Shown here: piece after piece, positions 14,941 to 23,973 of the stretch
How positions within the stretch are numbered: position 1 is the first letter of the stretch
Layout: each line of letters starts with the position of its first letter
Virus record (IMG/VR): IMGVR_UViG_3300021962_000647
Location: 1-23,973 of that record
Strand: one strand, 5' to 3'
Length of the DNA stretch: 23,973 nt
Source: a virus
The notes under the pieces: generated by a model
Databases searched by the model: none
Told to the model about the DNA's origin: nothing
What the model saw: only the letters and a program-made list of their open reading frames with translations
Made by a program: the position numbers and the translations under genes

Positions 14941-17234
14941 GCAACGGAACGAAAGTCGTTAAGAGAAATGGTAAAACTGAACCCCTTGATTTAAATAAAC
15001 TCCACGTTATGGTGGAAGAGGCGTGTAAAGATCTAGCAAACGTATCTGCATCACAGGTTGAGATGCAGTCTGGTATCCAATTTTATGATGGTATTACCAC
15101 CGCAGAGATTCAGGAGATTCTGATTCGTTCTGCTTCTGACCTGATTGACTTGGACCACCCCAATTATCAGTTCGTTGCTGCCCGTCTGTTGCTGTTTGCC
15201 CTTCGCAAGCAGTTGTTTGGTCGTATGCACGAGTGTCCTACCGTGAAGCAGCATGTAGAGCGTTGTGTTGGTAGAGGTGTGTATGACCCTGAGATTCTAT
15301 CGCTATATACCGATGAAGAGTTTGAAAAACTTCAGTCGTTCATTGATCATAGCCGTGACTATCTGTTCACTTACGCAGGTTTACGTCAGGTCGTTGATAA
15401 GTACCTCGTGCAGGACAGAAGCACTGGGGCACTTTATGAAACGCCACAATTTATGTACCTTTTGATTGCGGCAACTATCTTCTCCAAGTATCCTAAGGAA
15501 ACACGTTTAGATTACGTTAGGAAGTACTACGATGCAATCTCAAAGCACAAAATCAACATTCCAACCCCCATCATGGCAGGAGTGCGAACGCCACTTAGAC
15601 AATACGCTAGCTGTGTCCTTGTTGATGTTGATGACACCCTCGATAGTATCTTTACTAGCGATATGTCTATTGGCAGATATGTTGCACAAAGGGCGGGAAT
15701 CGGTATCAATGCAGGTCGCATCCGTGGCATCAACAGCAAAATCCGTGGCGGAGAAGTACAACACACAGGCGTTGTCCCCTTCCTTAAAAAGTTTGAAGCA
15801 ACTGTACGATGCTGCACTCAAAACGGGATCCGAGGTGGTTCAGCTACAGTCCACTTTCCTATCTGGCATCAAGAAATCCAAGATATCCTAGTATTAAAGA
15901 ATAACAAAGGAACCGAGGATAATCGTGTTCGTAAGTTAGACTATAGTATCCAAATCTCTAAACTCTTCTATGAACGATTCATCCGCAACGAAGACATCTC
16001 TCTCTTCTCTCCGCACGATGTTCCTGGTTTGTATGATGCTTTTGGCACTGATGGATTTGACGAGTTATATGTATCTTATGAACGAAATGAGTCTGTTCCA
16101 AGAAAAACTATTGGCGGTCAAGAACTATTTCTTTCACTCCTGAAAGAACGTGCCGAAACTGGTCGTATTTACATTATGAATATTGACCATTGTAACTCTC
16201 ACTCATCTTTCTTGGATAAAGTTGAGATGAGTAACCTCTGCCAGGAAATCACTCTGCCCACCAAACCTCTTCAACATATTGATGATACTGATGGTGAAAT
16301 TGCTCTTTGCATTCTTTCTGCTATCAATGTTGGCAAAATCAGGGATCTTGAGGATCTTCAAGTTCTTTGCGATCTTGCTGTTAGGTCTCTTGATGAACTC
16401 ATTGATTTTCAGGGATACCCCGTCAGAGCGGCAGAAATCGCCACCAGAGCACGTCGGTCACTTGGGGTAGGGTTTATTGGTCTTGCCCATTATCTCGCCA
16501 AGCATGGCGAGCACTATGACGATCCTGGTGCCTGGAAACTGGTACATGATCTGACTGAGGCATTCCAGTACTATCTCATTCAGGCGACTGTTGATCTTGC
16601 AAAAGAAAAAGGTGCTTGTGAATATTCGCATCGCACCAAATATGGTCAAGGAATTCTTCCGATTGATACATACAAGAAGGATGTGGATGAAATCGTTCCA
16701 AACGAATTGAAGTATGATTGGGAGTCTCTTAGAGCACAGGTTCTACAATACGGGGTACGGAACTCAACATTGTCCGCACAGATGCCATCGGAGAGCAGTT
16801 CCGTTGTGTCAAACGCAACCAATGGAATCGAACCACCTCGCGGATACTTGTCCATTAAGAAGTCGAAGAAGGGTCCACTCAAGCAGATTGTTCCCCAATA
16901 TCAAACTCTTAAGAACAACTATACGCTGCTGTGGGATATGCCTAGCAATCGCGGGTACATTCATATTGTTGCTGTTATGCAAAAGTTCTTTGATCAAGCG
17001 ATTTCTGGAAACTGGTCCTATAATCCAGAAAATTACCCAGATAATGAAGTTCCTACTTCAGTAATGGCACAGGACCTTTTGACTACATATAAGTACGGCT
17101 GGAAAACCAGCTACTATCAAAATACACACGACATGAAGAATGATGAGGTTGAAGAAACCCGTCAGTCTCTTGAGAATTTAATTTCCGATATTCTAGATTC
17201 AGAGGAGGAAGATTGTGAGTCTTGTAAGATTTAA
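14937..17234 (+). CDS. nrdA: Ribonucleotide reductase class Ia, large subunit NrdA
   Basis: 765 aa, full length for the family. Reduces ribonucleoside diphosphates to deoxy forms, supplying dNTPs for phage DNA. Active-site residues by comparison with E. coli: C226 (in YASCVLVD), N433, C435 and E437 (SNLCQEI), C458 (ALCILSAIN), and the radical-transfer tyrosine pair Y726-Y727 (SYYQNTHD). The C-terminal redox pair is CESC (C760, C763), closer together than the E. coli CESGAC arrangement. The start region KVVKRNGKTEPLDLNKLHVMVEEAC is a reduced ATP-cone. No intein or intron, although phage nrdA is a common insertion site. The 3' end overlaps nrdB. Confidence 0.97.
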   Translation: MSNGTKVVKRNGKTEPLDLNKLHVMVEEACKDLANVSASQVEMQSGIQFYDGITTAEIQEILIRSASDLIDLDHPNYQFVAARLLLFALRKQLFGRMHECPTVKQHVERCVGRGVYDPEILSLYTDEEFEKLQSFIDHSRDYLFTYAGLRQVVDKYLVQDRSTGALYETPQFMYLLIAATIFSKYPKETRLDYVRKYYDAISKHKINIPTPIMAGVRTPLRQYASCVLVDVDDTLDSIFTSDMSIGRYVAQRAGIGINAGRIRGINSKIRGGEVQHTGVVPFLKKFEATVRCCTQNGIRGGSATVHFPIWHQEIQDILVLKNNKGTEDNRVRKLDYSIQISKLFYERFIRNEDISLFSPHDVPGLYDAFGTDGFDELYVSYERNESVPRKTIGGQELFLSLLKERAETGRIYIMNIDHCNSHSSFLDKVEMSNLCQEITLPTKPLQHIDDTDGEIALCILSAINVGKIRDLEDLQVLCDLAVRSLDELIDFQGYPVRAAEIATRARRSLGVGFIGLAHYLAKHGEHYDDPGAWKLVHDLTEAFQYYLIQATVDLAKEKGACEYSHRTKYGQGILPIDTYKKDVDEIVPNELKYDWESLRAQVLQYGVRNSTLSAQMPSESSSVVSNATNGIEPPRGYLSIKKSKKGPLKQIVPQYQTLKNNYTLLWDMPSNRGYIHIVAVMQKFFDQAISGNWSYNPENYPDNEVPTSVMAQDLLTTYKYGWKTSYYQNTHDMKNDEVEETRQSLENLISDILDSEEEDCESCKI
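17202..17209 (+). promoter_or_regulatory. Strong ribosome-binding site deciding the nrdB start
   Basis: GAGGAGGA lies 5 bases (AGGAGG 6 bases) before GTG 17215, inside the end of nrdA. The later in-frame ATG 17269 has no comparable site, so GTG is favoured. Confidence 0.75.
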
Positions 17235-18399
17235 AACAGGTTTAGAGGGTAAATCAGTGGTTGAGTCAATGACTGTTTTTAACCCCAACGAAGTAGACAC
17301 CAAAAAGCAACCAATGTTTTTTGGTCAACCATTGGGAATTCAAAGATATGATTCTTACAAGTATCCAATTTTTGATAAATTAACAACACAGCAATTGGGT
17401 TATTTCTGGAGACCCGAAGAGGTATCTCTTCAAAAAGATCGTAGCGACTATCATATGCTACGCCCAGAACAAAAACACATCTTTACCAGCAACCTGAAAT
17501 ATCAGGTAATGCTGGACTCAGTTCAGGGTCGTGGTCCTGGTATGGCGTTTGCTCCATACTGTTCATTGCCTGAACTGGAAGCGTGTATGAAAGTATGGGA
17601 GTTTATGGAAATGATCCATTCCCGTTCATACACTTATATCATCAAGAATGTTTACTCAGATCCATCTGAAGTTTTTGATACAATCTTAAAAGAAGATCGC
17701 ATTATGGAACGTGCCGTGAGTGTAACTCAGGCATACAATGACTTTATCAATAATGCTCATCATTATGATAATTCAAATGAGTGGGTCCACGCTTTGGAAC
17801 AAGTACCCTACGCGAAAGAAGCAAGGTATGAACTCAAAAGAAAACTTTTCAGAGCAGTTGCAAACGTTAATATTCTTGAAGGTATTCGCTTTTACGTCAG
17901 CTTCGCTTGTAGTTTTGCGTTTGGCGAGCTCAAGCTTATGGAAGGAAGTGCAAAAATCATCTCACTGATTGCCCGTGATGAGAACCAGCATCTGGTTATC
18001 ACTCAGAACATTCTGAACAAGTGGAAAGAAGGTGATGACCCAGAGATGGCACAAATTGCCAAAGAAGAAGAGCAATGGTTTTATAAAGCATTTGAGAATG
18101 CTGTAGACCAGGAAAAACTCTGGGCAGAATATCTGTTTAAAGATGGATCAATGATCGGTCTAAATGACAAACTGTTACAGCAGTATGTTGAGTGGATTGC
18201 AAATCGTAGAATGAAGGCAATTGGACTGAAACCACTTTATGATATTCCTGCAAAGAATAATCCTCTTCCTTGGACTGAGCATTGGATTTCTTCAAAGGGT
18301 CTTCAAGTTGCCCCACAAGAAACCGAAGTTGAATCGTACATCGTTGGAGGAATCAAACAGGATGTTACCAAAGATACTTTCTCAGGATTCCAACTATGA
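17215..18399 (+). CDS. nrdB: Ribonucleotide reductase class Ia, small subunit NrdB
   Basis: 394 aa from GTG 17215 (or 376 from ATG 17269). It houses the di-iron tyrosyl radical. Iron ligands by comparison with E. coli R2: D101 (LDSVQGR), E132 and H135 (EMIHSRSY), E222 (LEGIRFY), E256 and H259 (ARDENQHL). The radical tyrosine Y139 is present, so this is a Tyr-radical class Ia enzyme. The C-terminal tail DTFSGFQL matches the R2 tail that docks on NrdA. The N-terminal 18 residues (VRFKTGLEGKSVVES) extend beyond the usual start but have the better ribosome-binding site. nrdA overlaps by 20 bases and the next small gene by 38. Confidence 0.96.
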   Translation: MSLVRFKTGLEGKSVVESMTVFNPNEVDTKKQPMFFGQPLGIQRYDSYKYPIFDKLTTQQLGYFWRPEEVSLQKDRSDYHMLRPEQKHIFTSNLKYQVMLDSVQGRGPGMAFAPYCSLPELEACMKVWEFMEMIHSRSYTYIIKNVYSDPSEVFDTILKEDRIMERAVSVTQAYNDFINNAHHYDNSNEWVHALEQVPYAKEARYELKRKLFRAVANVNILEGIRFYVSFACSFAFGELKLMEGSAKIISLIARDENQHLVITQNILNKWKEGDDPEMAQIAKEEEQWFYKAFENAVDQEKLWAEYLFKDGSMIGLNDKLLQQYVEWIANRRMKAIGLKPLYDIPAKNNPLPWTEHWISSKGLQVAPQETEVESYIVGGIKQDVTKDTFSGFQL

Positions 18400-18523
18400 T
18401 GAATGGTGCGAACAGGCAATCCTGAACGCATACCAGGAAGCAGCAGAGTGTGATGAGTTTCTATTTGGGGACTACAACTACTCTGAAGAATGGCTAGGTA
18501 AATGTCATGATGATGTAAAATGA
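18362..18523 (+). CDS. 53-aa acidic protein after nrdB, unknown function
   Basis: ATG 18362 is 11 bases after GGAGG (18346-18350), inside the end of nrdB. The upstream part of the frame is antiparallel to nothing useful and is dropped. Sequence NYDEWCEQAILNAYQEAAECDEFLFGDYNYSEEWLGKCHDD: acidic, helical, with three Cys and two Trp. Three cysteines next to a reductase might suggest a redox role, but there is no CxxC, so it is not a glutaredoxin. The stop codon lies in the terminator stem. Last gene of the second early operon. Confidence 0.6.
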   Translation: MLPKILSQDSNYDEWCEQAILNAYQEAAECDEFLFGDYNYSEEWLGKCHDDVK

Positions 18524-18545
18524 GGATCTTTGACCCTCTTTTTTT
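18522..18545 (+). terminator. Terminator merging into a late promoter
   Basis: GAGG and TC (18522-18528) pair with GA and CCTC (18532-18538) around one A/C mismatch with loop TTT. The T run 18539-18545 ends in the TATAAATA promoter. It ends the nrd early operon. Confidence 0.75.
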
Positions 18546-18552
18546 ATAAATA
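18545..18552 (+). promoter_or_regulatory. Late promoter TATAAATA (perfect T4 consensus)
   Basis: Exact T4 late consensus, 27 bases before ATG 18580. A 10-base palindrome AGGAATTCCT (18558-18567) lies in the leader. Confidence 0.85.
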
Positions 18553-18579
18553 CTCACAGGAATTCCTGTAAGTATAAAA

Positions 18580-19701
18580 ATGTTAGGGTCTGATCTAAAA
18601 GCACTATACGATTCTTATCAAGATATGTATGAAGAGGGGGATGGAATCTCCTGTGAAATGATTGAAGATATCGTAGAAGAACTCGTTGAAGAATGTGTAG
18701 AGTTTGGATACACTATTGATGAAGCGACTACTGCTGTGGCAAATGCAGCAATTCTTTATATTGATGAAGCAAAGGTCACCTATGGTAGTGACACCGAAAG
18801 CCCAGAGCAGCGTCGTGAGCGTGCTAAGGCAAAAGTTGGTGAAAAGAAAGCAGCAGCACGTAAGGCAGCAGTAAAGACCGCTGTAGGGCGTGCTAAGGCA
18901 AAGGCAGTTGGTGCCGCTGCTGGTGCTAGTATTGCTGCTTCAGTCGCCAAGGACACTGCTAGAAGAGCAGCAAGAACTGCTGTTCATAAGGTTTCCTACG
19001 GAGCCCAGAAGAAGAAGGAGCAAGTCAAGAGTGGTGTTAAGAGTCTGATTGGAAAGGGTCTTCGTAAGGCAGCAGGAGCGGTTGGAAAGGTCGCTCAGAA
19101 GGCAGCAGGTGCTGCTTCAAGACTTGGTGAGGAGGTTGTTGGTGAGCAAAATGCAGGTCCAAGTACACCCGTAAAGTTCGATTCTCATATGGGTCAACTT
19201 GTTCCTAATCAAGGAGCAGGTAGAGTTGGTGCTGTTCGTCTTAAGCCAGGAATGGGTTTAAAGAAAGGTGGAACAGTAAAAGAAGCAAGTTTTGATATTG
19301 ATCCTGCTGCTCACAGACAACAGCAAAAGATTCAGAAAGCAACTAATCTCCAACAAGCAACAAAGGGTGCTGAATCTTCAGCAGCAGGAGCTGCTGTTAA
19401 GAGATTAGGTGGATCTGGTGTTACTCTTCCACTTGCAAACTCCTACGAACCAGAAGATATCTATGACCTGGTAATGGAATATCTGTTGCAAACAGGTCAG
19501 GCAGAAACAATTTCTGAGGCACAATATATTATGTCTCAAATGGATCTTCAAATGATTCAATCAATTGTTGAGCAACAAGTTCCAGTCACTCCAACAAAAA
19601 AAGCAACTTGGGATCAAGGACAAAGATTAAAAGATCCAAGAGCACAAAAAGTTTATGATCGCATGACTGGACCAAATCCAGTAAAACTTTCTCCTGCTTG
19701 A
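18580..19701 (+). CDS. Histone-H1-like Lys/Ala-rich late protein
   Basis: 373 aa. Residues 1-65 are an acidic helical head (DLKALYDSYQDMYEEG, MIEDIVEELVEECVE). Residues 75-175 are a strongly basic Ala/Lys/Arg/Gly tract (for example RRERAKAKVGEKKAAARKA and KGLRKAAGAVGKVAQKAAG) of histone-H1 type, expected to bind DNA. The C-terminal part has ANSYEPEDIYDLVMEYLL (286-303) and an helical segment ISEAQYIMSQMD. The SYEPE motif also occurs twice in the large basic protein at 10310-12103, linking the two late loci. Probably packaged or head-core protein; several (L/I)-x-E stretches could be prohead-protease sites. It stands alone between a late promoter and a terminator. Confidence 0.87.
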   Translation: MLGSDLKALYDSYQDMYEEGDGISCEMIEDIVEELVEECVEFGYTIDEATTAVANAAILYIDEAKVTYGSDTESPEQRRERAKAKVGEKKAAARKAAVKTAVGRAKAKAVGAAAGASIAASVAKDTARRAARTAVHKVSYGAQKKKEQVKSGVKSLIGKGLRKAAGAVGKVAQKAAGAASRLGEEVVGEQNAGPSTPVKFDSHMGQLVPNQGAGRVGAVRLKPGMGLKKGGTVKEASFDIDPAAHRQQQKIQKATNLQQATKGAESSAAGAAVKRLGGSGVTLPLANSYEPEDIYDLVMEYLLQTGQAETISEAQYIMSQMDLQMIQSIVEQQVPVTPTKKATWDQGQRLKDPRAQKVYDRMTGPNPVKLSPA

Positions 19702-19711
19702 TAACGTTATC
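19700..19711 (+). repeat. 12-base perfect palindrome at the stop codon
   Basis: GATAACGTTATC is perfectly self-complementary and overlaps the stop TGA (19699-19701). A short operator-like site or a chance palindrome; no function is known. Confidence 0.45.
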
Positions 19712-19723
19712 CTAACATAATTT

Positions 19724-19751
19724 AAGCACCTCTTGACAGAGGTGCTTTTTT
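19724..19751 (+). terminator. Rho-independent terminator
   Basis: AAGCACCTCT (19724-19733) pairs perfectly with AGAGGTGCTT (19738-19747), loop TGAC, T run to 19751. It ends the H1-like gene. Confidence 0.92.
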
Positions 19752-19780
19752 ATTGCTAGAATCGCTTTGCTAGGGTTGAA

Positions 19781-19788
19781 GATAAATA
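19781..19788 (+). promoter_or_regulatory. Late promoter GATAAATA
   Basis: Seven of eight bases match TATAAATA, 22 bases before ATG 19811. It would serve the nuclease-peptidase-lysozyme group. Confidence 0.7.
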
Positions 19789-19810
19789 ATAGCTCATAAA
19801 GTTCTTTAGT

Positions 19811-20260
19811 ATGAGCTATGAAAACCCTTGGAGATTCAATGGGGAAATTTTTGAGTCTTCTGATATTCAAGATAATTTTGGTTTTGTTTATCATATACAC
19901 TGCAATCAAACTGGTCGTAGTTATATTGGTAGAAAGTATTTCTGGTCTTTCCGAACACCAAGAGGAAAATCTAGAAAAGTTAAGTCAGAGTCCGATTGGA
20001 AAGCATATTACGGCTCCTGTCCTGAACTCAAAGATGACGTTAAGCTTTGGGGAAAGAATGCGTTTAGGAGAACAATCCTCAGCCTTCATAAAACCAAAGG
20101 ACAATGTAACTACGAAGAAACCAAACAGCTTTTCCTAAATAATGTGTTGATCGAGTCTCTTGACGATGGAACGCCTGCGTATTACAATAGTAATATCCTA
20201 GGACGCTACATGCGAAAAGATTATGGTAACTTTGGAAGAGACTCTGCAAACGACTCATGA
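19811..20260 (+). CDS. GIY-YIG-like endonuclease domain protein
   Basis: 149 aa. The GIY-YIG layout is visible: GFVYHIH (24-30) for the first strand and SYIGRKYFW (37-45) for the second, 12 residues apart. R41 is in the place of the catalytic arginine. A W..YYGS turn follows (63-69), then KLWGKNAF (78-85), and a helix with YEETKQLF where the metal-binding glutamate (E102 or E103) belongs. It is a single domain, without the DNA-binding extensions of the T4 Seg homing enzymes. It may be a free-standing homing or repair nuclease, or a general phage nuclease. No ribosome-binding site is clear. It overlaps the next gene by 38 bases, so it is an integral operon member rather than a recent insertion. 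Catalytic activity is inferred. Confidence 0.82.
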   Translation: MSYENPWRFNGEIFESSDIQDNFGFVYHIHCNQTGRSYIGRKYFWSFRTPRGKSRKVKSESDWKAYYGSCPELKDDVKLWGKNAFRRTILSLHKTKGQCNYEETKQLFLNNVLIESLDDGTPAYYNSNILGRYMRKDYGNFGRDSANDS

Positions 20261-20429
20261 TTGGGCAGTTGACCGCATTCATACTCTCTGTGAAGAAAAT
20301 ATTGAGAATGCCCACGCGATTCAATCTGAATTTAGTGAATGGTTGAATCCAAATATTTTAGACCATGATATTTTCTCATTAGAGTTCATAGGAGAGGGAG
20401 ATGACACTAGACCTTCACAATTTTTTTAA
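20223..20429 (+). CDS. 68-aa acidic protein of unknown function
   Basis: ATG 20223 lies inside the end of the nuclease gene. The frame ends inside the peptidase gene (29-base overlap), bridging what would otherwise be a 140-base gap. Acidic and helical: VTLEETLQTTHDWAVDRIHTLCEENIENAHAIQSEFSEWLNP, then DHDIFSLEFIGEGDD. The ribosome-binding site of the next gene (GGAGAGGGAG, 20391-20400) is within it. No motif recognised. It is real by position and by lack of a competing frame. Confidence 0.65.
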   Translation: MVTLEETLQTTHDWAVDRIHTLCEENIENAHAIQSEFSEWLNPNILDHDIFSLEFIGEGDDTRPSQFF

Positions 20430-21072
20430 ATTTTACGACGAAAAGAATTCAAATCATGTTGCAGCAGTTCAATGGTTAGAGGATAACCTACCTGCTGAGT
20501 TTCTGGATGATGCAGAAACTGATTGGATTGGAATGTTTAGAACTAAACCACCTACACCAGAGGTTCTAGCAGTTCCTTACTTTAACCAAGTAGACAACTA
20601 CAGAGATGCACATAGAACTTGTAACAGTTCATCGTGCGCTATGTGCCTTGCTTTCTTAAAGCCTGGTTCAATCAAAGGCGACGATGAATACGTTAAGAAA
20701 GTATTTGCGATTGGTGACACTACTGACCATGCGGTACAGACGAAAGTTCTGGCAGGTTATGGAGTTAAGTCACACTTTAGTTACAATCTTTCTTTTGCTG
20801 ATATTGATAAGAGTCTCGATGCTGGAAAACCTGTTGTTATTGGTATCCTTCACAGGGGTTCTTTATCTGCACCTACTGGTGGGCACATGTGTGTTGTAAT
20901 CGGCAAAACTCCAGATGGCAAAGGTTACTATGTAAATGATCCATATGGTTCTCTCAATGATAACTATACTGGACCTGTGACGAATGGTAAGAAAACCATT
21001 TACACCAAAGCAGTTCTTAAGCACCGCTGGTGTCCAGGAGGGAATGATGGATGGGGAAGAATTTTCGATTAA
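20401..21072 (+). CDS. C39-like cysteine peptidase with shared N-terminal module
   Basis: 223 aa. The start ATG 20401 has GGAG/GAGGGAG directly upstream. Residues 1-37 (LDLHNFFKFYDEKNSNHVAA, then VQWLEDNLPAEFL) are nearly the same as the N-terminus of the lysozyme encoded downstream. The rest is a papain-like C39-type fold: VPYFNQVDNYRDAHRTCNSSSC with the likely nucleophile C79 (SSCAMC), H162 in GGHMCVVIG, and D180 in VNDPYGS. C39 peptidases cut peptides after a double-Gly leader or, in phages, cell-wall peptides; the substrate here is unknown. Situated beside lysozyme under a late promoter, it probably helps cell-wall breakdown or processing at lysis. It could also be a virion component. Confidence 0.87.
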   Translation: MTLDLHNFFKFYDEKNSNHVAAVQWLEDNLPAEFLDDAETDWIGMFRTKPPTPEVLAVPYFNQVDNYRDAHRTCNSSSCAMCLAFLKPGSIKGDDEYVKKVFAIGDTTDHAVQTKVLAGYGVKSHFSYNLSFADIDKSLDAGKPVVIGILHRGSLSAPTGGHMCVVIGKTPDGKGYYVNDPYGSLNDNYTGPVTNGKKTIYTKAVLKHRWCPGGNDGWGRIFD

Positions 21073-21184
21073 TTTTAAAAGGAAGATCTTACAACGTATT
21101 AAAGATCTTACCAATCATGGTAAACATGTAGAAGCAAATCAACTTTATCAAAAATACTTCGGAGGTAACAATGGCAAGAGTTGA
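21047..21184 (+). CDS. 45-aa basic protein between peptidase and lysozyme
   Basis: ATG 21047 (or 21044) follows AGGAGGG (21036-21042). The frame is nested with the end of the peptidase gene and overlaps the lysozyme start by 14 bases. The lysozyme ribosome-binding site GGAGGT (21161-21166) is inside it. Helical and basic: FSINFKRKILQRIKDLTNHGKHVEANQLYQKYFGG. The good ribosome-binding site and the two-sided overlap support translation. Function not recognised; the context suggests an accessory of the two hydrolases. Confidence 0.6.
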   Translation: MDGEEFSINFKRKILQRIKDLTNHGKHVEANQLYQKYFGGNNGKS

Positions 21185-21836
21185 CCTACACAATTTCTTT
21201 CAATTCTATGATGAAAGAAATCCCAATCACGTTAAAGCAGTTCAGTGGTTAGAAGATAATCTCCCTGTTAAGTTCCTTGAGGACAATGTAGACTGGGCGG
21301 AGATCTATAGAGGAAAAAAGACTAGTGCTGCACCAGCACCCGCTGCTGCAGCTCCAGTAACAGGTGGTGATGATGTCCCACAGATGGGCATCAAATTAAT
21401 TAAGGAGTTTGAGGGATGCCATTTAAAAGCATATCCCGATCCTTTAACTGGTGGACTTCCAATCACAATTGGTTGGGGTTCAACCCGTAAGAAAGATGGT
21501 TCTCCATTCAAAATGGGAGATACACTTACACAGGCAGAAGCAGATGCACTTCTAATTGAGCAGTGCAAGAAAGAGTTTCTACCTGCACTCAGAAAAATTC
21601 CTCATTGGGGTGAAATGTCAGATGGAAAAAGAGGCGCTCTGCTCAGCTTTGCTTATAATCTTGGTGCCGGTTTTTACGGTGGCGCTAACTTTAATACTAT
21701 TACTAAACGCCTAAAGAATAAAGAGTGGGACCTAGTGCCTGATGCTCTTTATCTCTACCGCAATCCTGGTTCTAATGTTGAAGCAGGTTTAGCACGTAGA
21801 AGAAAGGCAGAAGGTGAATCCTGGAAAAAAGGCTAA
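21171..21836 (+). CDS. GH24 lysozyme (endolysin-type) with shared N-terminal module
   Basis: 221 aa. Start ATG 21171, GGAGGT at 21161-21166. The N-terminal module VDLHNFFQFYDERNPNHV..VQWLEDNLP (4-32) repeats that of the peptidase. A flexible Ala/Pro linker (52-62) follows. The catalytic domain is of T4-lysozyme type: FEG (E81), YPDP (D90) and ITIGWGS (T99) give the Glu-Asp-Thr triad. Then come GALLSFAYNLGAGFYGG and an RRKAEGESW end. It hydrolyses peptidoglycan between MurNAc and GlcNAc. There is no signal peptide, so release needs a holin or it is carried in the virion. The two-part design differs from single-domain T4 e lysozyme. Confidence 0.93.
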   Translation: MARVDLHNFFQFYDERNPNHVKAVQWLEDNLPVKFLEDNVDWAEIYRGKKTSAAPAPAAAAPVTGGDDVPQMGIKLIKEFEGCHLKAYPDPLTGGLPITIGWGSTRKKDGSPFKMGDTLTQAEADALLIEQCKKEFLPALRKIPHWGEMSDGKRGALLSFAYNLGAGFYGGANFNTITKRLKNKEWDLVPDALYLYRNPGSNVEAGLARRRKAEGESWKKG

Positions 21837-21839
21837 ATA
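21832..21839 (+). promoter_or_regulatory. Late promoter GCTAAATA overlapping the lysozyme stop
   Basis: The TAA stop (21834-21836) supplies the middle of the octamer. It lies 29 bases before ATG 21869. Confidence 0.65.
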
Positions 21840-21868
21840 ATGTGAAAATCATTCTACATTAAAGAATT

Positions 21869-22099
21869 ATGGCTACGGAAGAACAATCAACTCATATGTT
21901 AAACCTGTACAATCAGGCAAAACAATTAAGTTCTGATTTGGCAAATTTACAGGAACAAACTTCATCCAAAAGAGATTTGTTTCTTAAAGTCCAAGGTGCA
22001 ATTGAATATTTGACTCAAATTGGAGTGCCTATTCCAAGTGAAGCACCTGCAGAAATTGAAGATCCAGCAACAGAAGAAGCAGAAGCAACCGAAGAGTAA
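21869..22099 (+). CDS. Small acidic coiled-coil protein
   Basis: 76 aa. The start is ATG 21869. The N-terminal 48 residues are a helix with a heptad-like pattern (LNLYNQAKQLSSDLANLQEQ, KRDLFLKVQGAIEYL). The C-terminus is acidic and Ala/Pro-rich (EAPAEIEDPATEEAEATEE), an unstructured tail. It has its own late promoter. This is a type of small late protein seen in marine T4-like phages. A chaperone or virion accessory role fits the shape, but no family is recognised. Confidence 0.82.
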   Translation: MATEEQSTHMLNLYNQAKQLSSDLANLQEQTSSKRDLFLKVQGAIEYLTQIGVPIPSEAPAEIEDPATEEAEATEE

Positions 22100-22105
22100 T
22101 AAATA
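22098..22105 (+). promoter_or_regulatory. Late promoter AATAAATA overlapping a stop codon
   Basis: It begins within the TAA stop at 22097-22099. The distance to the next ATG (22207) is 101 bases, three times longer than for other late promoters here, leaving room for the structured leader. Confidence 0.6.
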
Positions 22106-22115
22106 GATTCAACCA

Positions 22116-22200
22116 GTGAGTTGAAACTGCAACTCAAACCCACACCAAGGTGAGTTGTGTTTGGTAGTTCTTAGAGATTTCTACCACACCAACTCACCTT
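22116..22200 (+). promoter_or_regulatory. Structured 5' leader with alternative pairings
   Basis: Two short stems can form. GAGTTG (22118-22123) pairs with CAACTC (22130-22135). AAGGTGAGTTG (22147-22157) with TGGTAG (22162-22167) pairs with CTACCA and CAACTCACCTT (22181-22200). GTGAGTTG occurs twice (22116-22123 and 22150-22157), and its complement CAACTCAC at 22190-22197 can pair with either copy. The leader can thus fold in more than one way just before the ATG at 22207. The structure ends 6 bases before the start codon and may cover the ribosome-binding region, since no Shine-Dalgarno site is seen there. Confidence 0.6.
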
Positions 22201-22206
22201 ATTTCC

Positions 22207-23835
22207 ATGTCTACCAACACGCAAAAGGCGCTCGCTGCAGCGTCTGTGCTTCTTCTTGGAGTGCCAACAGCAGCATTATCTCACACCAATTCTATCGGAT
22301 ATGTTGGTGGGGGCAACGGATCAGTTACCTTCTGGTATGGTAACTGGCATCCTGGAACCAACTTTAATGAAGGAACCTTAACTTTACAAGGTATTAACGG
22401 AACTAGTTTTTCTCCAACAACTGTAAACTGGTCTCTGTTATCAGGAACGATGCCAAATGGATTAATTCCTGGCACAAATTACTTTACATCTGATGGAACG
22501 CAACTAATCGCATATGATCCAAATAATCCTAATGGTGGTGGGGGATCATATACTTGGCAAGGTGTAACATTTACAGGTCTTTCTGCTGGTGATTATCAGT
22601 TTACTTATAATGCTGCAGGATCTCCAACAGTCAACTGGATGCCTATGGATAGTGTTATCCTTTCCAGCAATGTAAGTCTTTCAGCAGCAGCTCTCTCTGG
22701 TGATGCTAACCAGAATGGTGTTCTGGATATTTATGAGACGGGTGGAACACCTCCACCACCAACTTTAGTAAGTTCCAGTACAATTAATAATGTTGTTTCA
22801 TCAGTCGCTGTTCTTGCTCCTGTATCTCAAACAACTATTAATCACACAGCAACAGAAGATGATGGAAGACAGAGAATCAATCGCTACACTCAAACTGATG
22901 TAACAACTACATCTGTTACAACCACTACAACGACACCAGTTACAACTGATACTTATAGTGATAATTCAACTGTTGTTACTAATGGAACCCCAGTTGTAAC
23001 CACATCACAATCAAGTGTAGTTGCAACTTCACATGAGTATGCCGACTTCTATGGTCGTGTAGATCAGTACGAAGTTATGGATAAGATTGGTGAAGGACTA
23101 CAAGGACTTCTCAATCATGAACCATCCCAATCAAAAGAAAAGGTTAGAGTCTTCAGCAAGAATTATTATGCCTGGTCTCAGGGAGATAATGGATACTCTG
23201 GAACTTCATTCGTCTATGGTGGTGGTTTAGAAATCGATCTAAAACCAACTTGGACTATCGGTGGTCAATACAATAATGTAACTCTAAATCTGAATGGAAC
23301 TGATAGTGCTTCCAAACTGATGAAGAGTCACTATGGCGTCTTTAATATGTTCAGAGGTAATACTTTATCACTTCTGACCAATGCTGGTCTTGCTCAGAAC
23401 AACTATAGTGTTTCCAGAAACGTTGCTGGAGTTTTCAGTAATGATAGTCAGACTGCTGGACAAGAATGGTGGGTCAGCAATAGACTTTTCGTTCATGTCA
23501 ATAAGCATGTAACACCTTTTGTTGGACATACTGTTCGTAACTATAAGAGAAATGCATTCACTGAAACTGGTTCATCAGAATCGGCAAGAAGTGTTGAAGG
23601 TGTTAATGAAACCTATAATGTTGGTGAAGCAGGTCTAAGACTCGAAACTCGTTTCGGTGGTAAGAAGAGAAATCTCTTTGGTGTAAGTGTTGAGGGTTCT
23701 TATGCAACTGATAATGCGATTGAAGCATCAGCAACTCTTGATTATAAAGAAGTCATCAGTCTTCAAGGAGTTCATCAGATTAATAATGGTGTGAGCAACA
23801 CCGCAGTATCCGCAAATGTTAAGTTTAGGTTCTAG
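22207..23835 (+). CDS. Secreted autotransporter-like outer-membrane protein with EF-hand loop
   Basis: 542 aa. The N-terminus MSTNTQKALAAASVLLLGVP then TAALS is a signal peptide with a likely cut after ALS25. Residues 26-160 are Gly/Asn/Thr-rich beta segments (SIGYVGGGNGSVTFWYGNW). D166-E177 is a complete EF-hand calcium loop (DANQNGVLDIYE). Then come a Pro run, a Thr/Ser-rich low-complexity linker (about 230-276), and from about 280 to the end alternating beta strands like an autotransporter or OMP barrel. The protein ends ANVKFRF: the terminal Phe with alternating hydrophobics is the outer-membrane insertion signature. Secretion by a phage-encoded protein of this plan is unusual and suggests display or insertion at the cyanobacterial surface late in infection. 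A virion component is the alternative, but the signal peptide argues against it. Function is inferred from architecture only. Confidence 0.85.
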   Translation: MSTNTQKALAAASVLLLGVPTAALSHTNSIGYVGGGNGSVTFWYGNWHPGTNFNEGTLTLQGINGTSFSPTTVNWSLLSGTMPNGLIPGTNYFTSDGTQLIAYDPNNPNGGGGSYTWQGVTFTGLSAGDYQFTYNAAGSPTVNWMPMDSVILSSNVSLSAAALSGDANQNGVLDIYETGGTPPPPTLVSSSTINNVVSSVAVLAPVSQTTINHTATEDDGRQRINRYTQTDVTTTSVTTTTTTPVTTDTYSDNSTVVTNGTPVVTTSQSSVVATSHEYADFYGRVDQYEVMDKIGEGLQGLLNHEPSQSKEKVRVFSKNYYAWSQGDNGYSGTSFVYGGGLEIDLKPTWTIGGQYNNVTLNLNGTDSASKLMKSHYGVFNMFRGNTLSLLTNAGLAQNNYSVSRNVAGVFSNDSQTAGQEWWVSNRLFVHVNKHVTPFVGHTVRNYKRNAFTETGSSESARSVEGVNETYNVGEAGLRLETRFGGKKRNLFGVSVEGSYATDNAIEASATLDYKEVISLQGVHQINNGVSNTAVSANVKFRF

Positions 23836-23844
23836 AAACCTAAA
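23824..23844 (+). other. Perfect hairpin spanning the stop codon and late promoter
   Basis: TTTAGGTT (23824-23831) pairs with AACCTAAA (23837-23844), loop CTAGA. The stop TAG is at 23833-23835 and the right arm contains most of the CCTAAATA promoter. There is no T run, so it is not a standard terminator. Confidence 0.6.
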
Positions 23845-23846
23845 TA
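23839..23846 (+). promoter_or_regulatory. Late promoter CCTAAATA
   Basis: Lies 25 bases before ATG 23872. The leader shares CTAAATAAG and TCACACGGA (23859-23867) with the leader at 12106-12135. Confidence 0.65.
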
Positions 23847-23871
23847 AGTGAGACTTCATCACACGGAACTG

Positions 23872-23973
23872 ATGGATAACAAAAGAGAAAAAGCTATGGG
23901 ACAAGTTATTCGTATTGCGATTTTGAGTTGGTCTGCCGCTCTTCTGACTGCTAGTTATGCAGGTATGCTGTCC
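23872..23973 (+). CDS. Membrane protein, N-terminal part (3' truncated by window end)
   Basis: 34 codons are visible from ATG 23872. The sequence starts MDNKREKAMGQVIRIAILSW, then SAALLTASYAGMLS: a charged N-terminus followed by a hydrophobic, membrane-spanning segment. The window ends before the stop. It follows the outer-membrane-like protein under its own late promoter. Its leader resembles that of the small membrane protein at 12143. Function unknown. Confidence 0.7.
   Translation, partial: MDNKREKAMGQVIRIAILSWSAALLTASYAGMLS

Follow-up and report, generated by a model that had tools for sequence, protein, structure and literature searches.

Phages are known to alter the surfaces of their hosts, mostly by means of small lipoproteins or inner-membrane proteins. 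The closest described systems for the protein treated here are the classical (type Va) autotransporters, of which NalP, EstA, EspP and AIDA-I are examples and whose translocator family in Pfam is PF03797. Among the matches listed in a search of literature titles and the openings of abstracts, which lay mostly outside the subscription journals, no phage-encoded classical autotransporter is described. Here, we analyse an open reading frame (ORF) of 542 residues in a stretch of viral DNA of 23,973 nucleotides (IMG/VR record IMGVR_UViG_3300021962_000647, positions 1–23,973; this whole stretch is called the window). With a probability of about 90%, judged from the predicted structure together with sequence comparison, the gene encodes an autotransporter of the classical, type Va-like kind. 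Like the type Va proteins, its product has a signal-peptide-like start, a passenger, a predicted lumen helix, a predicted 12-strand barrel and a terminal Phe, and the assignment is based on this succession of parts, with a stalk between head and helix. Display of the head at the cell surface late in infection is likely, the timing being suggested by a promoter-like motif and by the place of the gene.

The translocator barrel and the layout of the protein

An AlphaFold2 model of the whole protein, made with a 43-row alignment, has a mean predicted local distance difference test score (pLDDT) of 77.3. In its C-terminal part, strands are predicted for residues 313–325, 331–346, 349–364, 367–383, 387–406, 410–429, 435–448, 466–483, 491–500, 505–513, 517–526 and 529–538, and the mean pLDDT is at least 90 in 16 of the 23 ten-residue blocks of residues 311–540. 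These strands are preceded in the model by a helix (residues 287–302) that falls within the region aligned to NalP (residues 284–542). Foldseek against the PDB ranks NalP first (E value 4e-8), followed by EstA, BrkA, AaaA, Hbp and EspP, all of them autotransporter translocators. VIA-align places 254 residues of the model on NalP with an r.m.s.d. of 2.3 and a Z score of 28.4; other autotransporters follow (EstA 26.5, EspP 24.0 and AIDA-I 23.2), and the first barrel of another kind is reached at 17.8. In BFVD, ranks 1, 2 and 4 are held by proteins of uncultured Caudovirales phages named 'Autotransporter beta-domain containing protein'.

The sequence of the barrel is in agreement with its predicted fold. 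PF03797 matches the window barrel alone with an E value of 4.7e-11 (43.3 bits, cut-off 26), it matches 22 of the 23 barrel rows, and a search in genome mode gives 45.4 bits. Because of this E value and the NalP Z score, the similarity of the barrel is far above chance.

The original prediction, made from the letters of the sequence, had proposed an outer-membrane β-barrel that would show 10–14 strands in an AlphaFold model of the C-terminal region. Twelve strands are modelled, and the proposal can be sharpened to an autotransporter with signal peptide, passenger, lumen helix and translocator. Of the other features that it had listed, a signal-peptide-like N-terminus, the Pro/Thr-rich linker and the C-terminal KFRF are recovered as well. 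By eye, basic, hydrophobic and cleavage-like parts can be told apart in the N-terminus (MSTNTQKALAAASVLLLGVPTAALS, with the cleavage-like boundary before H), and a signal-peptide-like element of the same kind is found with three different passengers. A Thr/Pro-rich stretch is present in the protein sequence. For the C-terminus, 144 closed barrel ORFs from IMG/VR loci and two phages were reduced to 102 distinct proteins, all of which end in Phe (KFRF in 56, KFKF in 45 and QFKF in one). The features of the gene and its surroundings are collected in Table 1.

Table 1. Features in and around the putative autotransporter gene (window positions; residue numbers refer to the gene product).
Feature	Position	Strand	Evidence
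C39-type peptidase, endolysin-like, upstream neighbour	20401..21072	+	PF13529, E 4.2e-14
Phage lysozyme, upstream neighbour	21171..21836	+	PF00959, E 2.9e-22
ATAAATA, late-promoter-like, 108 nt upstream of the ATG	22099..22105	+	
Structured 5' leader; its long, interrupted hairpin extends to the start codon	22118..22206	+	Folding z score, pair counts, covariance model
Putative autotransporter gene, 542 residues, open frame, ATG start	22207..23835	+	
Signal peptide, residues 1–25, assigned by eye	22207..22281	+	Recurs with three passenger types
Passenger head of type A, residues 26–165, probably a β-sandwich	22282..22701	+	Homology to bacterial autotransporter heads; model pLDDT 76.5, pTM 0.74
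Single calcium-loop-like motif, D166–E177, absent from some relatives	22702..22737	+	
Stalk or linker, Pro- then Thr-rich, residues 178–284; long strands in the model	22738..23058	+	
Helix 287–302, at the position of the autotransporter lumen helix	23065..23112	+	Model
Translocator barrel, 12 predicted strands, residues 313–542, ending in KFRF	23143..23832	+	Model, Pfam
DUF6450-type small putative membrane protein, start only, at the window edge	23896..23973	+	PF20048, E 4.6e-5, 23.6 bits (cut-off 25)

Passenger heads and bacterial relatives

Three types of passenger head, assigned by short patterns, are combined with one kind of signal peptide and one kind of barrel: type A, that of the window, in 53 of the 102 proteins, type C in 38 and type B in six. 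The other five proteins are incomplete, lack a passenger type and were excluded from a 97-row barrel tree. Between the complete heads (46 of type A, six of B and 30 of C), the best blastp E values are 0.12 for A–C and 0.54 for A–B. In the tree, which is of a quick kind without bootstraps, the head type needs four changes, compared with a possible minimum of two and a mean of 34 for shuffled labels; on these counts, the heads are mostly inherited along with the barrel and are sometimes exchanged. The type B protein of locus L098 clusters with the type A proteins of L101 and L103 (SH-aLRT, the Shimodaira–Hasegawa-like approximate likelihood-ratio test, 95), and the type B protein of L102 clusters with L096 and L097 of type C (SH-aLRT 98). 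The barrel is a common delivery device and the head its exchangeable cargo. Type C heads, which are found in L039, L097 and part of L104–L153, carry a Pro-Thr-Glu-rich linker of varying length; that of L039 is weakly like the PEP-named NCBIfam family NF038132 (30.3 bits, cut-off 90).

The window head is homologous, as judged by sequence, to heads of proteobacterial autotransporters. A head profile matches two of 398 Pseudomonadota genomes (E values 1.2e-39, for L265, and 4.6e-29). Both proteins, L265 and L266, are compact and consist of head, linker and PF03797 barrel, and they are probably cellular, since a pilin-type methylation-motif gene and an MscL gene adjoin them. Within a four-protein set, the window head is 49.6% identical to L265 over 139 residues (E value 9e-33); with the second Pseudomonadota protein it shares 39% identity over 171 residues. 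A tblastn search of plasmids with the window head yields Ochrobactrum sp. MT180101 (E value 1e-8) and Novosphingobium resinovorum pSA1 (E value 6e-6), and in both plasmids the head sits near the N-terminus of a large PATR-repeat protein. The Novosphingobium protein has a C-terminal PF03797 barrel. The Ochrobactrum ORF runs off the fetched DNA; its annotation, which begins at a later start, reads autotransporter domain-containing. With the default filters of HMMER, the phage barrel profile has no match in these four head-sharing bacterial proteins.

The head is well conserved, with 63–92% identity to that of the window over 42 rows. Modelled alone with 43 rows, it consists mainly of strands (pLDDT and predicted template modelling score, pTM, in Table 1) and is likely to be a β-sandwich. 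Against the PDB, this model has no Foldseek match at an E value of 0.001 or below and no VIA Z score of 8 or above. We infer a 'binding head', that is, one that is probably ligand-binding.

Residues D166–E177 (DANQNGVLDIYE) had been put forward as a full EF-hand loop, with calcium sensing among the possible uses of the protein. The 12 residues do fit the EF-hand loop pattern, which we take to be PS00018 (six of 2000 shuffles of the protein also match). The loop is single, and the models show only short helical turns nearby, with moderate or low confidence there, in place of an EF-hand helix pair. Conservation in the family is likewise not found: among 53 type A relatives, DANQNG is present in 35, DANLNG in three and DADGDG in nine, and six have no loop. 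The pattern match stands, and calcium sensing is left unsupported because some members of the family have an altered loop or none. The loop presumably resembles a single loop of the thrombospondin-3/dockerin type and may be a calcium-stabilized joint between head and stalk.

For the barrel, a quick tree of 49 sequences splits off the 24 phage barrels together, by a single branch (SH-aLRT 100); the tree program warns that long branches meet at the phage clade, and the nearest relatives of the phage barrels are unsure. A profile–profile comparison with the cyanobacterial barrels (18 of 22 in the alignment) gives a probability of 95 and an E value of 3.6e-8 over 162 columns. A direct host origin is found for neither part: among 386 Cyanobacteria, the phage barrel profile has one weak match over 55 positions, and the head profile has none in these or in 201 genomes from the Synechococcus sp. 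RCC307 family, a search that lacks a cyanobacterial positive control and whose sister profile works in Pseudomonadota. PF03797 proteins above the cut-off occur in 63 of the 386 Cyanobacteria and in 60 of the 201 genomes of the RCC307 family, our stand-in for the host, and the insertion machinery is therefore presumably available in the likely hosts.

A head that is shared with bacterial autotransporters would also suit an adhesin, by which infected cells stick together or to their neighbours and the progeny meet new hosts. The order of head, stalk and autotransporter barrel is the layout of many bacterial adhesins, which adds to this case; against it, picocyanobacterial hosts are dilute planktonic cells. 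We regard adhesion as the main role as possible and rather doubtful.

Source phage, leader and gene neighbourhood

The window is a 24 kb viral record. Its nearest relative by DNA is Synechococcus phage S-SRM01 (identity 81.8%, coverage 47%). Further cyanophages are also near, and the matched genes carry the annotations DNA polymerase, primase-helicase and ribonucleotide reductase. By these DNA similarities, the window is a fragment of a T4-like cyanophage (Kyanoviridae). The virus probably infects cyanobacteria, with host and habitat taken from the relatives: S-SRM01 originates from a reservoir, and DSL-LC02 and DSL-LC03 from a lake. The latter two are the only ones of 50,697 phage records with a homologue, and more distant queries lead to the same two; their genomes were assembled from lake metagenomes, according to the title of PMC10611076. 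In IMG/VR, the whole protein as query matched 77 stretches, giving 76 loci, and a relative of the barrel is encoded in 314 stretches, the best 80 of which were examined; the 76 whole-protein loci and 80 barrel loci are best-hit samples. A further search matched 153 stretches, of which 80 were used. The original statement that such proteins are known from few lytic phages fits the phage records and does not fit IMG/VR. At least one of the lysozyme, C39-type and DUF6450-type genes is present in 101 of the 102 barrel loci, and hli, psbA or psbD lies within the fetched DNA of 11. A scan of genome contigs with one of the alignments matched 11 stretches, none of which encodes a relative.

ATAAATA, which we take to be the core of the late promoters of T4-like cyanophages, occurs within 200 nt upstream of the gene in 63 of 78 copies, at 99–149 nt from the ATG, compared with 196 of 3900 random windows. 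The 78 leaders include near-copies; the motif is present in 55 of the 69 distinct ones. Late expression, as first proposed, agrees with two signs, the late-promoter-like motif and the place beside the endolysin genes.

The motif is followed by a structured leader; folding of positions 22097–22260 gives a z score of −4.5. The leader occurs in two sequence forms, and of 79 leaders 22 belong to form i, which includes the window, 49 to form ii and eight to neither. In the form ii alignment (34 of the 41 distinct leaders), both sides of seven of the 19 pairs have changed with pairing kept, and 98.6% of the cells pair when identical rows are merged. Two-sided changes are seen in 33 cells against 8.1 in shuffles (none of 500 as high); form ii is little above the shuffles in the number of two-sided pairs (seven versus 4.4, 25 of 500) and of further pair types (17 versus 16.1, 192 of 500). 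For form i (21 leaders aligned), two of 13 pairs have changed on both sides with pairing kept, with 11 two-sided cells against 3.1 in shuffles (none of 500) and two such pairs against 1.6 (284 of 500). Slid versions of the hairpin pair in 29–59% of cells. On these counts, support for the hairpin is good in form ii and moderate in form i.

AGAGGA, which resembles a ribosome-binding site, lies within the 3' arm of the form ii hairpin, and the hairpin may gate translation or transcription. Covariance models, run on 49 of the loci (552 kb), match the window at 22118–22209 with 109.8 bits and place the leader, on the gene strand, before no other gene; weaker matches on the opposite strand coincide with the same places. 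Rfam has no match in positions 17000–23973 at an E value of 0.1 or below. In T4, late transcripts of gene e start inside a hairpin; a role of this kind was set aside because ATAAATA lies upstream of the entire hairpin.

The gene neighbourhood was surveyed with chosen query proteins, so that a small unlisted gene may intervene, and it covers copies with at least 1 kb upstream (31 of 102 are shorter) or at least 500 bp downstream (six of 102 are shorter). Upstream, the lysozyme is the nearest sought gene in 64 copies and one sought gene off in six, and the C39-type gene precedes it in these 70 of 71; L073 is the sole exception. The gap between lysozyme and frame is 631–1044 nt in four of the 64 copies with the lysozyme nearest. 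Three of the 70 C39-type genes are of the S-SRM01 kind, which likewise matches PF13529. The C39-type peptidase of the window matches phrog_3617 (unknown function, E value 6.9e-77) and phrog_10051 (endolysin, E value 6.1e-75). Downstream, the first sought gene among 96 copies is the DUF6450-type gene in 86, a gene for a small protein resembling outer-membrane proteins (OMPs) in six, psbA in two and none in two. A complete DUF6450-type homologue in L003 scores 53.8 bits. By eye, the DUF6450-type protein has two membrane segments and a charged tail; relatives occur in 433 phage records, including T4-like and T7-like cyanophages, and it could be a holin.

This regular company of lysozyme, C39-type and DUF6450-type genes would fit a lysis factor that acts with the endolysins and with a perhaps holin-like DUF6450 protein: at the end of infection, its barrel or passenger would take over from spanins the weakening of the outer membrane. 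The predicted fold, on the other hand, is that of a translocator, and three unlike passengers on one barrel would be odd for a lytic mechanism. S-SRM01 has both the C39-type and the lysozyme gene, and the homologue was not found there. In none of four other cyanophages does an annotated endolysin adjoin the DUF6450-type gene, although many of the genes around it are labelled 'hypothetical'. A lytic role is unlikely, because unlike heads serve one barrel.

In some loci, genes for other outer-membrane proteins occur as well. An SLH-OprB porin is phage-encoded (L154, 12432–13892, corresponding to S-SRM01 184931–186391, with PF04966 and PF00395 in S-SRM01), and relatives of it are found a few kilobases upstream of the autotransporter in L027, L028, L029, L039 and L059. 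Porins of the SLH-OprB kind are known as major outer-membrane porins of cyanobacteria. The same region holds a small cyanophage OMP in L002 (8156–8527, PF24653), L034 and L073. Porin, small OMP and autotransporter suggest an outer-membrane remodelling set. Another small gene, OMP-like by eye, lies directly downstream in L002 (13868–14383, with no Pfam or PHROG match), L028, L029, L031, L047, L048 and L050. Further upstream, window positions 19811–20260 match phrog_447, named NAD synthetase, as well as homing-endonuclease PHROGs, and this name may be wrong.

Weighing of the assignment and comparison with known systems

A number of results speak against the assignment as an autotransporter displayed late. 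Whole-protein scans of Pfam and NCBIfam give no match for the window protein; PF03797 was likely missed there through the composition filter of HMMER acting on the Thr-rich stalk. Against PHROGs, the protein reaches a best E value of 0.22, which is not convincing, and the barrel alone has no match. A barrel profile finds EstA as the sole autotransporter among PDB sequences (E value 0.21), and the PDB sequence searches return nothing solid. The passenger is poorly modelled within the whole protein and moderately when alone, and the best fold matches of the head are weak (CBM56 with a Z score of 6.5, followed mainly by Ig/FN3-like folds at about 5). The branch that carries the phage barrels is very long, at about three changes per column. 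Finally, ATAAATA occurs eight times in the window against 6.6 expected by chance and is not enriched window-wide.

If the assignment is correct, the gene would be transcribed late in infection near the lysis genes, and its product would be exported by Sec and inserted by the β-barrel assembly (BAM) machinery of the host. The 12-strand barrel would then bring the N-terminal head, borne on its Thr-rich stalk, to the exterior of the infected cyanobacterium. There the head would most likely bind a glycan or receptor as its ligand on the surface of the infected cell, its debris or its neighbours. The benefit may be less loss of progeny, less entry of rival phages or cells that are held together. 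Given the place by the lysis genes and the late-promoter-like motif, the most likely role of the protein is to decorate the infected cell before it is lysed. The likeliest uses are blocking of re-adsorption to debris, superinfection exclusion or adhesion; to name the blocking of re-adsorption or superinfection as its purpose is tentative. More tentative still is a modular display system of T4-like cyanophages, in which a lysis-linked autotransporter with a dedicated RNA leader carries swapped, host-matched heads and blocks re-adsorption or rivals. If true, a phage-encoded type V secretion device would take part in virus–virus or virus–debris conflict.

A component of the virion, such as a decoration of tail or capsid with the N-terminus uncleaved, is very improbable: the signal peptide, the full translocator barrel and the C-terminal Phe have no evident use in a virion. 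Cyanophage virions can hold structural proteins with a YadA domain, which is named after a trimeric autotransporter adhesin (available text of PMC9146016). A spurious ORF arising by chance is negligible, as the frame is open and conserved in 102 distinct homologues and has both a family and a fold match.

The occurrence of a full autotransporter in hundreds of viral stretches, together with lysis genes and swappable heads, suggests that the exterior of the host cell is remodelled by these phages shortly before they burst it. How cyanophages deal with superinfection, and with progeny lost to debris, could be tested concretely on this protein. It would also be a small, natural candidate for displaying proteins on cyanobacterial cells.

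Compared with the type Va autotransporters, the window gene is phage-encoded and lies beside endolysin genes, its barrel belongs to a divergent clade, and the protein has a Thr-rich stalk without a Pfam match rather than a recognized β-helix. The four bacterial proteins L265, L266 and those of Ochrobactrum and Novosphingobium carry a homologous head near the N-terminus (33–50% identity), with a PF03797 barrel in three of the four; they differ in that their barrels go unmatched by the phage profile under default filters and that the two plasmid proteins have PATR repeats. Closest among named phages are the Dishui Lake Kyanoviridae proteins WJZ47857 (DSL-LC03) and WJZ48311 (DSL-LC02), which are about 55% identical over most of their length and have a lysozyme just upstream. 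They are annotated as 'autotransporter outer membrane beta-barrel domain-containing protein' or 'hypothetical protein', and the terms 'autotransporter' and 'outer membrane' are absent from the main text of PMC10611076, which concerns these phages. The structural matches A0A6J5R861, A0A6J5L9T3 and A0A6J5KUW0 from BFVD are metagenomic phage proteins known by name only. The small cyanophage OMP of PF24653 is likewise of a surface type and differs as a barrel family of 122 positions. The YadA-domain proteins of cyanophages are also of a surface type and differ in being structural proteins of the virion, as given in the available text of PMC9146016.

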